A stretch of 64,000 nt of DNA from assembly GCA_017303895.1 (NCBI GenBank), contig JAFLBF010000010.1, positions 1 through 64,000 on the forward strand, in the 5' to 3' direction. The DNA is from Bacteroidota bacterium. Lineage in GTDB: Bacteria; Bacteroidota; Bacteroidia; 2-12-FULL-35-15. The notes beneath the pieces are model-generated. The model searched no databases. It was not told the DNA's origin and saw only the letters and a program-made list of their open reading frames with translations. Position numbers and translations under genes: made by a program. Of the stretch, positions 4,062 to 8,475 are shown piece after piece (positions within the stretch are counted from its first letter, which is position 1; the number at the start of each line of letters is the position of its first letter).

Positions 4062-5576
4062 TTATTTGTTCAGTTCTTTGCTAATTTCTTTAAGCCTTTC
4101 TATTACTTCTTTAGCACTTTCCTTAAATTTGTTTTTTGCATTATTCTCATCTTCATGTATCCAAACTTTTACTTCTTCAATCAGTTCTTTTTTTGCCTGT
4201 CTGCGTTTATACTTATCTTTGATGGCAATCACCATATCAACTTTTTCTTGAAACTCTGCAGGTAAATACTTCTCGAAGTCATGTTCAGAAAACTGACTAA
4301 AATTTGATTCGTTCCATCCAGATTTTGAGTATTTGTCGCGCATTCGATTAATTATATTTTGCTCTTCGCTACCAGCATCAATAATTACCCATACTTTATT
4401 TTTATATGTTGGTGCCATGTGAAGAAAAATAAATAATCGGTCGAAGTCATCAAATTTCGGGATAATAGATGATGTTCCTCCAGCAGAAAAAGTTCTTAGT
4501 TTGTTTTTAAGTGGTTTTACGAACCAATCTATTAGATAATCTCTAATTATTATCTCAGCCGATGATTCTTCTAGGAATAACCATCCTTTCCATAAGTCAA
4601 AATCAAAAAAGTCATAGCCTAAATCCTCAAGCACTTGCCGTCTTGATTCTGGGCTTTCAGGCACTTCGTTAATTTTTGATACAAATAAATTTTGACGTCC
4701 TGTGTCCCTAAAATCATTTGTTACATTAAAAACCTTTGCGCCTTCGACTCCACCCAAATATTTCATGACAATGTTAGAATGTGTCGAAACAAAGAATTGA
4801 TTAGAATTGGACTTGTCTATTATTAATTTTAAAAGTGCTTTGAGTGCTTTTGGGTGAATATCGTTTTCTGGTTCTTCAATCAGAAATATTCTATCTTCAG
4901 CAACACAAAGGTCAGTTATTAGCCCCAAAATATTAGCGACCCCTTCGCCCATTGCTGTTAAAGGGATGTGTTCCAAGTTGTGCACGAAATAAACTGCTTG
5001 TTTGCCATTTCCCTTAGCTAACGTTGATACTTCAAATCCTAAAATTGAGTTACAAGCTTCTACATACTGTTTATTACCAGGCTGAAATTGAGGTGTTACA
5101 AGTCTATCAACTTTAGAATACAAATTTGTAAAATTACCTGCTACAGAATTTGCATTTTGTTCGTTTATAGCGTCAACGTAATTAACCGCCTTTCTTTTTG
5201 ATAGGTATGGGTAAATTAAATTGTTAGGTTCCTGTTCAGGTATTTGATTTAGTCCACCGGTTTGAGAACCATTATTCATTCCGTAAAGTCGTTGGTTATT
5301 CGCCAAATTAAAAATCAATCTATTGTATGTATTATTGGACGGAATGAGCTGTAGGTGATTTCCTTTGTAGTATAGTTCAATTTTACCTTGAGTTTGTCCG
5401 ATTGTTATATCGTTTCGATTCAGGACCTGTCGTTGAAACTGAAAAATTGAATTAAGAATTGTTGATTTTCCAGCATTATTGGGTCCTATAAAAATGTTTA
5501 TTGAATCGGAAAAGTCTGTCTTAGGAATTCTTTGAAATCCACGAACATTTTCGATTTCTATTGCTGTTATTTTCAT
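4062..5576 (-). CDS. OLD-family-like ATPase with degenerate TOPRIM domain
   Basis: This is a 504-residue SMC/ABC-type ATPase: Walker A GPNNAGKST at residues 31-39, Walker B IFLIEEPENDIHP near 235, and an H-loop STHSN near 270. The C-terminal part begins with LFLEESSAEIII (TOPRIM first strand with Glu) and contains VWVIIDAG where active OLD nucleases have D-x-D; here the second Asp is Gly. It then ends in a Lys/Glu-rich helix. OLD proteins are ATP-dependent nucleases linked to phage interference. The missing metal-binding residue makes nuclease activity doubtful. No UvrD helicase (GajB) or other partner is adjacent. The gene sits alone in an attC-flanked unit. Confidence 0.7.
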   Translation of the reverse strand: MKITAIEIENVRGFQRIPKTDFSDSINIFIGPNNAGKSTILNSIFQFQRQVLNRNDITIGQTQGKIELYYKGNHLQLIPSNNTYNRLIFNLANNQRLYGMNNGSQTGGLNQIPEQEPNNLIYPYLSKRKAVNYVDAINEQNANSVAGNFTNLYSKVDRLVTPQFQPGNKQYVEACNSILGFEVSTLAKGNGKQAVYFVHNLEHIPLTAMGEGVANILGLITDLCVAEDRIFLIEEPENDIHPKALKALLKLIIDKSNSNQFFVSTHSNIVMKYLGGVEGAKVFNVTNDFRDTGRQNLFVSKINEVPESPESRRQVLEDLGYDFFDFDLWKGWLFLEESSAEIIIRDYLIDWFVKPLKNKLRTFSAGGTSSIIPKFDDFDRLFIFLHMAPTYKNKVWVIIDAGSEEQNIINRMRDKYSKSGWNESNFSQFSEHDFEKYLPAEFQEKVDMVIAIKDKYKRRQAKKELIEEVKVWIHEDENNAKNKFKESAKEVIERLKEISKELNK

Positions 5577-5587
5577 CTTTTATAATT

Positions 5588-5603
5588 GCGTCTAACGTTT
5601 TGC
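5588..5603 (-). other. Left half of an attC-like site, cut by the IS110 element
   Basis: GCGTCTAAC (5588-5596) followed by GTTTTGC reads, on the minus strand, as a core box GTTAGAC (GTTRRRY type) 14 bases before the ATG of the OLD-like gene. The stretch CTAACGTTTTGC (5592-5603) can pair with GCCAAAC-AGCT-GTTAG at 6944-6959 on the other side of the IS, with AGCT extrahelical. Removing the IS would join this half to 6861 and restore one long imperfect hairpin. Confidence 0.5.
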
Positions 5604-5639
5604 CTTTAGTTTGTATTTTAATTAAATATACAATAAATT

Positions 5640-5790
5640 AACTGAAAAGGAAACGGGTGAACTATAACGTTTTGTAGGTGTAGAGACCTAAAAGCTGCAT
5701 AAGTCCCGTTTCCTTCCTCAGACTTGTAAGAGCTAATTGGAATGATAGGCTTTAAGGCCTGCTAAAGGCAATCGCAAAACAAGTTTTTTA
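5640..5790 (+). ncRNA. Candidate IS110 bridge RNA with readable guides
   Basis: Two stem-loops lie between the left end and the transposase. The first is closed by an 11-bp perfect stem (AAGGAAACGGG 5647-5657 with 5705-5715) and contains a small inner hairpin (5675-5690). Inside it, TAACGTTTTG (5665-5674) is identical to the left target flank (5593-5602), and AAGCTGCA (5692-5699) is the complement of the right target flank TGCAGCTT (6859-6866). The second loop contains TTGGAATG (5737-5744), identical to the right end of the element (6853-6860 region), an AGGC/GCCT hairpin, and CTAAAGGCA (5762-5770), complementary to the left end TGCCTTTAG (5601-5609). This is the target-loop then donor-loop layout described for IS110 bridge RNAs. 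RNA ends are estimated. Confidence 0.75.
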
Positions 5791-5810
5791 TTTACCTTAA
5801 AAACAAAGTT

Positions 5811-6401
5811 ATGGAAAAAATTACAGAACAAAAACGGTTTACAGAAAGTGTTGGAATTGATGTTTCAAAACTTACAATCGATGTTTTTCTTTACAACAAA
5901 AAGAGTCATCGCCAATTTGCTAATACCCCCAAAGGGTTTTTACTTATGCAAAAATGGATAACATTTGAAGTAGGTAGTTTGAACGATTTAATTTATTGCT
6001 TTGAGCACACAGGTTGGTATTGCATCCTATTAAGTCATTTTTTACACGAACAGTCCTTGTTTTATTGTTGTATCAATCCGTTAGAACTGAAGCGTTCAAT
6101 GGGCTTTAAAAGAGGAAAAACTGACAAAACAGACTCCTATGAGATTGCTCGATTTTCCTGGTTAAGAAAAGAGGAATTAAATCCTTCTGTTCCAATGTCA
6201 TTAAAGTTAATTGAGCTTCAACGACTAATGAGTGTTCGAGAACAATTTGTAAAGCAATGTACGGCATTGAAAAACCTGGAAAAAGGATTGCTTGTTACAA
6301 TTGAAAAACTGACATCAGATATTGGACTTAAATTAATTCGACAATCGATTCAACAGTTAGAGCATCAAGTGAGTAAAGTAGAAAGGCGATGGAAGAATTA
6401 A
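5811..6401 (+). CDS. IS110-family transposase, N-terminal part (frameshifted)
   Basis: This 196-residue frame carries the RuvC-like DEDD catalytic domain of IS110 recombinases: Asp in VGIDVSK (near residue 17), Glu in CFEHTGWY (near 65) and the Asp pair in GKTDKTDSYEIA (near 107). A coiled-coil-prone helix follows. The frame ends early at 6401 because one base appears to be missing in the A-run around 6382-6384. With one extra A the reading continues VEKAMEELI into the next frame. There is no canonical slippery heptamer at this point, so programmed frameshifting is unlikely. Confidence 0.8.
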   Translation: MEKITEQKRFTESVGIDVSKLTIDVFLYNKKSHRQFANTPKGFLLMQKWITFEVGSLNDLIYCFEHTGWYCILLSHFLHEQSLFYCCINPLELKRSMGFKRGKTDKTDSYEIARFSWLRKEELNPSVPMSLKLIELQRLMSVREQFVKQCTALKNLEKGLLVTIEKLTSDIGLKLIRQSIQQLEHQVSKVERRWKN

Positions 6402-6823
6402 TAAAGCAGGAACCTGAAATGAAAACCAATTACAAATTAAGCAAAAGTGTAAAAGGAGTTGGTAAAATCCTTGCTATACAAATGATTCTGCATACACATA
6501 ACTATAGTCGTTTTGCAGAGTGGCGTCAGTTCTCGGCCTATTGTGGACTTGTTCCATATCCATTTCAATCAGGAACGAGTATCAATGGAAGGAGGAAAAT
6601 TCATGCAATAAGCGATGTTAAAATGAAAAGTCTATTATCATTGTCGGCAATTAGTGCGATACAACACGATTCGGAATTAAAACACTATTATCAAAAACGA
6701 GTAGAAGAAGGCAAACCTAAAATGGTAGCATTAAATATTATTAGAAACAAAATAGTGTCTAGAATTTTTGCAACAGTTAAACGAGGAACTCCATTTTTGG
6801 AACTAGCCAAATTTGCAGCTTAA
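6389..6823 (+). CDS. IS110-family transposase, C-terminal part (frameshifted)
   Basis: This frame (144 residues) holds the second IS110 domain (transposase_20 / IS116-IS110-IS902 type): the helix-hairpin-helix-like SVKGVGKILAIQMI, then FSAYCGLVPYPFQSGTSI, where the Ser of QSGTS sits where the nucleophilic serine of this family is expected, followed by the GRRKIHAISD helix. Joined to the preceding frame, the protein would be about 338 residues, the normal IS110 size. The apparent ATG at 6389 is internal to the real gene. The copy is inactive unless the missing base is an error. Confidence 0.8.
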   Translation: MEELIKQEPEMKTNYKLSKSVKGVGKILAIQMILHTHNYSRFAEWRQFSAYCGLVPYPFQSGTSINGRRKIHAISDVKMKSLLSLSAISAIQHDSELKHYYQKRVEEGKPKMVALNIIRNKIVSRIFATVKRGTPFLELAKFAA

Positions 6824-6858
6824 AATAATTGACAAAAAACTTGTTTTTGATCTTGGAA

Positions 6859-6964
6859 TGCAGCTTGCCGAAGTGGCGGATTTAGAAGCATAAATGTTTA
6901 TAAAAAAAACGAATGTTCAATTTAGCACTGAACCCGCCATTTTGCCAAACAGCTGTTAGCACTC
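6859..6964 (-). other. attC-like imperfect hairpin after the second OLD-like gene
   Basis: CAGCTTGCCGAAGTGGCGG (6861-6879) and its partner CCCGCCATTTTGCC..CAGCTG (6933-6955) form a long imperfect stem with a few unpaired bases on one arm and a loop of about 50 bases. The outer box GTTAGCACTC (6955-6964) lies five bases from the stop codon of the gene at 6969-8438. The same box occurs inverted as GAGTGCTAAC just before that gene's start (8465-8474). The layout resembles an integron attC site. The outer left arm is on the far side of the IS110 element (5588-5603). No integrase gene is in the window. Confidence 0.55.
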
Positions 6965-6968
6965 GTTT

Positions 6969-8438
6969 TTAATTTAAGGCTCTTTTTATTCTGTCAGCTA
7001 ATTTAGAATGATCTTCAGTTTCAATTATATAGTTACAAACCATTGATACAAATTCTTCTTCAGGTCTATTAACAGATGTAGCTGACGATACTAAGTCAGC
7101 AAAAAGTGCTTTACCGTCATTTTTATTGTTCTGCTTTTTTACATAGTCATTAATAATATTCTCTAATGATTTCTTTTTAAAAAAGCTATCACCAAAGTGT
7201 CTAAAAAATTTATGATCAACATTTTTAACCAATTTTTCTAGTAGAAATTTTTCTAGGCTTGGAATTGGAAGAAAACTAACATTTATATTTTTACATTTCC
7301 CTTTGTCTAAATAATTCGTTTTAAAAAGAGTTTCAACATCCCCATCTAAAATACTTATAACACTTTTGCTATATCCTAAAATTTCAGAATCTATGATTTC
7401 ACTATGTAACGTTAATGTGTTTTCCCAACCACCACTTGGAATTACGTGAATCAATTTAGATGCGTCAAGGTCGTGTTTTCTTTGCATCCATTCTATTAAT
7501 TTTCTGGCTAAATTGTCTTCAACTAATACTAACAAATCATAACCATCAAATAAAGAAATATTTTTTGTTGCATATGAAGGATAACAAGGATTTATAACCT
7601 CTACTGTCTTGTCTATATGTTTATGAAGATAATAAATATTATGTGGAGAGATTTGTCTTATTAAATCTACTGAATGGGTAGAAAAGTATATTGCAATATT
7701 TCTTTCTCTTGATATTTGACCTAAAAACTTTACAAGTCTAACCAAAGCTTGAGGATGTAACGCTAATTCGATCTCATCTAACAATACAATATAATGGTCT
7801 CTTTGCGGTTTTTTAATTAATTGAAAATGTATTGAATGAAGTAAAGAAATCAGCAAGTTTTCCCCTGTACTTAAGCTAAATTGACTAATTAAATGTCCAT
7901 CATCTGAATTTTCAACAAAATACGGTGAGCCACGAAATTTAAAAAGTGAAAAAGCTTCTTTAGCTTTTAATCTGTATAAATTTTCATAGTGATTTCCGTT
8001 ATCTTGTAAAATAACACCTAAATTGTCTTTAATGAAGTTTTCCGCGGGTGTTAAATGGTGCTTCTGAACTCTTGCAGCTTCATACAATGCTGAGTAGTTA
8101 GTGTCTCTAAATCTGTTACCGTGAATAATACTTCCTTCATAAAATCCATTTAACATTAAGTCGCCATTAAAATCCCATTTCTTTTGTTCTGAGTTTTTAC
8201 TAGCTAGCATTTTGTTTCCTTCAAGCTCATATTCAATTTTTGCATTTGAAGGACTATTTTGGAAATATGTTAAAAGAATTTTTCTATAAAATATAGATGC
8301 CAATGAAGCGATTAACGTACTTTTCCCACTAGCATTTTTACCTGTAATAGCATAAATGCCTGGTTTAAGATTCAACTCTAAATTAAGTGATTTTATTCCG
8401 CGAATGCCTTCTATTCCTATTTTTAATTTGTCTTTCAT
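6969..8438 (-). CDS. OLD-like ATPase with intact TOPRIM motif
   Basis: This 489-residue protein has Walker A GKNASGKST at residues 33-41, a Walker B strand [13 protein letters not shown] near 225 and an H-loop STHSVDL near 257. The C-terminal third is TOPRIM-like: LLVLVEDNLARKLIEW supplies the Glu, and SVISILDGDVE supplies D-x-D, followed by SLEKFLLEKL. It therefore keeps the metal-binding residues that the neighbouring OLD-like protein has lost. Similar ATPase-TOPRIM proteins act in phage defence (OLD, GajA, and as separate proteins in PARIS); which, if any, this belongs to cannot be told. It stands alone, is AT-rich, and is flanked by inverted TGTTAGCACTC boxes. Confidence 0.7.
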   Translation of the reverse strand: MKDKLKIGIEGIRGIKSLNLELNLKPGIYAITGKNASGKSTLIASLASIFYRKILLTYFQNSPSNAKIEYELEGNKMLASKNSEQKKWDFNGDLMLNGFYEGSIIHGNRFRDTNYSALYEAARVQKHHLTPAENFIKDNLGVILQDNGNHYENLYRLKAKEAFSLFKFRGSPYFVENSDDGHLISQFSLSTGENLLISLLHSIHFQLIKKPQRDHYIVLLDEIELALHPQALVRLVKFLGQISRERNIAIYFSTHSVDLIRQISPHNIYYLHKHIDKTVEVINPCYPSYATKNISLFDGYDLLVLVEDNLARKLIEWMQRKHDLDASKLIHVIPSGGWENTLTLHSEIIDSEILGYSKSVISILDGDVETLFKTNYLDKGKCKNINVSFLPIPSLEKFLLEKLVKNVDHKFFRHFGDSFFKKKSLENIINDYVKKQNNKNDGKALFADLVSSATSVNRPEEEFVSMVCNYIIETEDHSKLADRIKRALN

Positions 8439-8464: not shown

Positions 8465-8475
8465 GAGTGCTAACA
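8465..8475 (-). repeat. Inverted copy of the cassette end box
   Basis: GAGTGCTAACA here is the exact reverse complement of TGTTAGCACTC at 6954-6964; agreement continues inward (xTTTTxAA on both sides). The pair brackets the gene at 6969-8438, one copy about 27 bases before the ATG and the other five bases after the stop. Confidence 0.6.

Follow-up and report, generated by a model that had tools for sequence, protein, structure and literature searches.

An apparently RNA-guided IS110-type insertion in an attC-like cassette site of a Bacteroidota bacterium

Introduction

RNA guidance of insertion has already been published for elements of this kind, as the bridge RNA of IS621 and the IS110 family (PMC11208160, PMC11208158) and as seekRNA (PMC11187229). 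The element described here lies in a 64,000-nucleotide stretch of a Bacteroidota genome (the whole stretch analysed, hereafter the window). It resembles IS621 and its IS110 relatives in having a 5' non-coding RNA with a target loop followed by a donor loop, a DEDD plus Ser recombinase, left guides that are identical and right guides that are complementary to the top strand, and guides that are reprogrammed in nature. It is unlike IS621, whose core is CT, in having a TG core and relatives in which the left junction often carries another dinucleotide than the right one, and it also departs from IS621 in its Bacteroidota host and attC-like target. With the seekRNA of ISEc21 and the IS1111 family it shares a non-coding RNA that matches both target strands and natural re-programming (PMC11187229). 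In IS1111, however, the RNA region lies downstream of the gene and there are sub-terminal inverted repeats (PMC11187229), whereas the RNA of the window element lies upstream, as in the IS110 type.

PMC11187229 also cites an IS1111-attC group (ISKpn4 and ISPst6; Tetu and Holmes 2008, Post and Hall 2009) whose members insert, like the window element, at one end of cassette attC sites. These are IS1111-type elements in attC sites of integron-associated cassettes, whereas the element studied here is of the IS110 type and occupies attC-like sites of Bacteroidota. The attC-type target shared by the two groups is presumably convergent.

Integrons are thought to be rare in Bacteroidota. One complete integron, in Salinibacter, was reported for Bacteroidetes proper with IntegronFinder 2.0 (PMC9024848). 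The sites analysed below are similar to integron attC arrays and CALIN (IntegronFinder 2.0, PMC9024848), being arrays of palindromic sites in which the 5' box is complementary to the preceding 3' box, with few genes per cassette and a tyrosine recombinase nearby. They are unlike integrons in that this recombinase falls under the cut-off of the IntI model and lacks part of its profile, and in their 3' boxes, which are of the GTTAGCR type.

Results

Boundaries and state of the insertion sequence

The features of the locus are compiled in Table 1. The IS110-type element is present as a single copy in the host genome. In silico removal of 5603-6860 restored an imperfect palindrome like the intact copies found elsewhere in the genome and the genus, which indicates that the element ends are placed correctly. 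The left end CCTTTAG and right end (T)TGGAATG were seen again in relatives, the close ones starting with CCTTTAG and most of them finishing with (T)TGGAATG or ATAGAATG. The restored palindrome and the recurring ends bear out the boundaries that an earlier note on this DNA had assigned. The layout is not of the IS1111 type: only 37 bp lie between the stop codon and the right end, and the RNA region is upstream of the gene. Separately, positions 1-110 of the window have a GC-rich look unlike the remaining contig, a possible contig-end artefact.

Both transposase domains, DEDD (PF01548) and Transposase_20 (PF02371), are present, split over two ORFs in the window copy, and the catalytic residues D17/E65/D105/D108 and S255 are conserved. 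The transposase is single-frame in L010, L021, L014, and L015. In the window copy the frame shifts near 6390, and four relatives carry one extra A in an A-run at ~6374-6377 and keep the frame intact. Programmed frameshifting of the split gene was considered and set aside, since the same run is one A longer in these four relatives and their frame is unbroken; a 1-nt deletion or an assembly error is thus the more likely cause, as judged from the aligned copies. The window copy is probably a pseudogene or carries an assembly error, its activity is doubtful because of the frameshift, and from its sequence it is probably inactive now. The earlier note mentioned neither the broken frame nor the repeated attC-like site to which the target belongs.

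Table 1. Coordinates of the features of the IS110-type element and its target in the window
Feature	Position	Strand	Basis or remark
Left part of attC-like site split by the IS (box GTCTAAC followed by GTTTTG)	5590..5602	+	Sequence
IS110-type insertion sequence, 1258 bp	5603..6860	+	Boundaries from relatives and restored target palindrome
Bridge RNA, two-loop fold, span of covariance model R1	5642..5784	+	Covariation, 38 aligned sequences
Left target guide TAACGTTTTG	5665..5674	+	Same as 5593-5602
Right target guide AAGCTGCA	5692..5699	+	Reverse complement of TGCAGCTT, 6859-6866
Left donor guide TTGGAATG	5737..5744	+	Same as element right end 6853-6860
Right donor guide CTAAAGGCA	5762..5770	+	Reverse complement of TGCCTTTAG, left end 5601-5609
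Transposase, N-terminal DEDD/RuvC part (PF01548)	5811..6401	+	Frame broken afterwards by apparent 1-nt deletion, A-run near 6374-6377
Transposase, C-terminal part (PF02371), next frame, conserved Ser-Gly	6389..6823	+	Domain match and alignment
Remainder of interrupted attC-like site, box GTTAGCA at end	6861..6961	+	Sequence
Apparent cassette gene: 489-aa AAA ATPase (PF13304/PF13175), owner of the IS-split attC-like site	6969..8438	-	
Cassette start GTTAGCACTC	8465..8474	-	Reverse complement of box GAGTGCTAAC, 10/10, copy at 6955-6964

A predicted two-loop RNA and its guides

A long stretch of non-coding sequence precedes the gene and has a two-loop RNA fold, and the four guide matches of the earlier note were all found to be exact on direct reading of the sequence. 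Its proposal that the element follows IS110 bridge-RNA logic, target loop and then donor loop, holds for the window element and for ~30 divergent relatives, as does the rule of a left guide identical to the top strand and a right guide complementary to it, with guides that co-vary with the flanks. Loop 2 was confirmed to match both ends of the element itself.

The earlier note had also named a covariance model of the two-loop RNA as a check, and we built one from the 5' ends of six relatives. In the 38 aligned sequences, which include one weak antisense hit in L021, 88% of cells were paired, compared with 27-46% in slid control versions of the fold, a gap that is still large given that the alignment was fitted to the structure and leans in the fold's favor. 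The fold is backed by covariation, with 37 of 38 pairs changed on both sides. Rfam gave no match at gathering scores for the RNA or for the palindrome.

Loop-1 guides of relatives follow their own flanks

Genomes of the same genus contain close relatives, as do those of other Bacteroidota. In two draws of 395 genomes, the covariance model had matches in 10 and 23 genomes, a count that includes the genome of the window, and it contributed ~30 further members across Bacteroidota, giving ~37 members in all. A plasmid tblastn and a viral-contig scan with the transposase returned no relative.

For each member, the left end was located by a CCTTTA-like anchor and the right end by a donor-guide-like anchor, and loop 1 was scored by how well it could be matched to the flanks at best, with swapped pairs maximized identically. 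The ends of the relatives were chosen by best match and the null was maximized equally, so that the test stands and single junctions may be wrong. Left target guides matched left flanks with a sum of 230 (permuted mean 137.8, SD 7.7; 31 relatives) and right target guides matched right flanks with a sum of 200 (permuted mean 153.4, SD 4.7; 32 relatives), values that none of 20,000 permutations reached for either side. Exclusion of the window-like guide group again gave 0/20,000 permutations on both sides.

The target guides of relatives thus vary widely and follow their own flanks. L026 has the guides GGCTTGG and CCTTCGCA and the flanks GGCTTGG and TGCGAAGG, and its left donor guide ATAGAATG equals its own right end; in L021, GGTCGCA faces TGCGACT. 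Further clear single cases are L086 (AGACGCGAG), L088 (CAGGTCTT / CGTTCGAT), L082 (CCTGAGCA), and L066 (TGCCTGTA). A few relatives (L077, L081) had no convincing flank match, probably through mis-assigned ends. In the close relatives L010 and L014, the right ends, CTTGGCGTTTAG and CTTGGACGATTTG, deviate from the left donor guide; these ends resemble a near-copy, 7-8 nt long, of the left target. At L015:2260-2290 the left end is doubled (CCTTTAGTTTG twice) and the right flank is like a left end, possibly an abortive or tandem event or an assembly artefact.

Chance matches, or flanking DNA copied by the element, could in principle mimic guides that have no such function, and the identical loop 1 of the closest relatives cannot on its own separate a guide from a fossil of this kind. 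Divergent members with a wholly different loop 1, however, match their own flanks and not those of others, the right guide is complementary and not identical, which copying would not yield, and the RNA pairing covaries. The permutation tests also contradict chance or copying, which we regard as highly improbable, and we read loop 1 as a functional guide. The earlier note had held chance to be very unlikely and had staked its claim on loop 1 changing with the flank in related copies inserted at other sites; both statements survived the permutation tests.

Core dinucleotides

The recombination core had been read as TG. TG does occur at both junctions of the window copy, but it does not hold as a family-wide core: left/right junction dinucleotides in relatives were GG/TG, CG/TG, GT/TA, GG/TA, AG/TG, and TT/AT. 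The two junctions agree in the window (TG/TG) and in L021 and differ in most other resolved relatives, a count that is suggestive only, since right ends were chosen partly by right-guide pairing. In the relatives, the dinucleotide at the left junction often fits the left guide, and the one at the right junction pairs with the right guide. In the published model, the core of the incoming donor is paired by the right target guide once the top strands have been exchanged (PMC11208158). The pattern seen here fits that model and suggests that, in this element group, the core of the target can differ from that of the donor.

The target belongs to a family of attC-like sites

After removal of the element, the target reads GTCTAACGTTTTG-CAGCTTGCCGAAGTGGCGG...CCGCCATTTTGCCAAACAGCTGTTAGCA, an imperfect palindrome with relatives in the genome and the genus. 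No whole attC-like site was found in the window because the IS splits its only one, and the AAA ATPase gene next to it looks like a lone cassette with a site broken by the IS. AAA ATPase genes (AAA_15/AAA_21, AbiEii-like) lie on both sides of the IS, at 6969-8438 and 4062-5576; they are possibly defense genes, the former in an apparent cassette.

Several of the sites form arrays with a usual spacing of 0.4-4 kb and mostly one gene, or a few, between them. In 15/17 consecutive pairs, the 3' box of the first site was matched, as an exact reverse complement, by the 5' box of the next (shuffled pairs: mean 1.57, maximum 8; 20,000 permutations), whereas the boxes within one site matched in just 2/23. 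More arrays obeyed the rule in 5/5 and 4/4 pairs. The chain in G000 C8 (L037:390-16778) has six attC-like sites with matching boxes in 5/5 consecutive pairs, one of which spans 8.8 kb of ordinary genes. Such a pattern is expected from integron cassette insertion, and to our knowledge nothing else produces it.

The loop-1 target of the window element, AACGTTTTGCAGCT, closely resembles the outer-end consensus of these sites (AACGTTTTG|CRGCT). Exact matches to the 14-nt guide target were present in 3/39 attC-like sites and matches within 2 mismatches in 15/39; the background at <=2 mismatches was 4 matches in 328 kb of strand. A folding null based on swapping left flanks was uninformative, as the pairing arm lies mostly in the right flank. 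Other members in attC-like sites are L010, L014, L021, L026, right ends in G016, and possibly L068 and L069. L068, L069, and L071 come from another Bacteroidota class and are inserted near a TAAC box with different guides, a possible case of independent retargeting to cassette sites.

A tyrosine recombinase beside the arrays

Sites of this family were located near a tyrosine recombinase in the window genome (G000, C14) and in G016, G027, G034, G003, G031, G035, and G017. The recombinase has 350-390 aa (the open frame is longer in a few), and several directly adjoin sites; five 20-kb control regions contained no site. About half of the recombinase loci were without a site in the stretch examined, partly since contigs end there. 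Arrays lie beside the gene in G000 C14 (L055:119-6847), G016 C3 (L040:1022-5477), G027 C37 (L117), and G034 C42 (L125), the recombinase being divergent from the cassettes in G000 and co-directional with them in G016, G027, and G034.

The recombinase matches NF040815 (XerA / integron integrase) near the cut-off and scores 187-216 bits with TIGR02249, under the cut-off of 265, with positions 182-237 unmatched, which we take to be the place of the IntI-specific segment. It is thus not an IntI integrase that exceeds the curated cut-off and carries that segment, and its nearest solved structures are XerA, an XerC-like protein, and IntI4.

These observations also bear on whether the target could instead belong to a REP-like family of intergenic palindromes. 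The sites are indeed palindromic, intergenic, and repeated, and IS110/IS1111 elements in REPs have been published (PMC11208160, PMC11187229). Against this, the boxes match between consecutive sites and not inside a site, mostly one or few genes lie between sites, and the arrays adjoin an IntI/XerA-like recombinase while control regions are free of sites. We know of no REPs with matching boxes, cassette-like spacing, or a neighboring recombinase. A REP-like origin is accordingly improbable, and we favor a cassette recombination site.

Discussion

We are highly confident in the overall explanation that an IS110-type element was inserted under RNA guidance into the attC-like site of a cassette and that this copy is now probably inactive. 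Loop 1 of the bridge RNA would bind both strands of the target DNA and loop 2 both strands of the joined element ends, and the DEDD/Ser recombinase would then insert the excised circle at the loop-1 target. RNA expression, a circular intermediate, and top-strand exchange are expected here by analogy with published work on IS621 and ISEc21. A loop-1 guide fitted to the conserved outer end of attC-like sites would offer the element many intergenic landing sites; in the window, the one hit would have been that of the lone AAA ATPase cassette.

On balance, we also favor a broader and less certain reading, in which this Bacteroidota genus and its relatives carry integron-like cassette arrays that depend on a XerA/IntI-like tyrosine recombinase with no IntI-specific segment, and the target loops of IS110 bridge RNAs in the phylum have been tuned repeatedly to the conserved end of the cassette sites. 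The strategy of targeting attC is known from IS1111; for this IS110-type group it seems not to have been described before. Our literature search found no description of this integron-like system of Bacteroidota, which is weak evidence of novelty; more of the novelty may lie in this platform than in the element.

The ~37 members, with many guide pairs and varied core dinucleotides, constitute a natural, phylum-wide bridge-RNA data set beyond IS621 that can help to learn which positions of guides and core are unconstrained. With regard to target choice, the site found here indicates that IS110-type elements, like those of the IS1111-attC group, pick cassette recombination sites. The findings also point to integron-like gene capture in Bacteroidota that goes uncalled when IntI profiles are searched with the curated cut-off.
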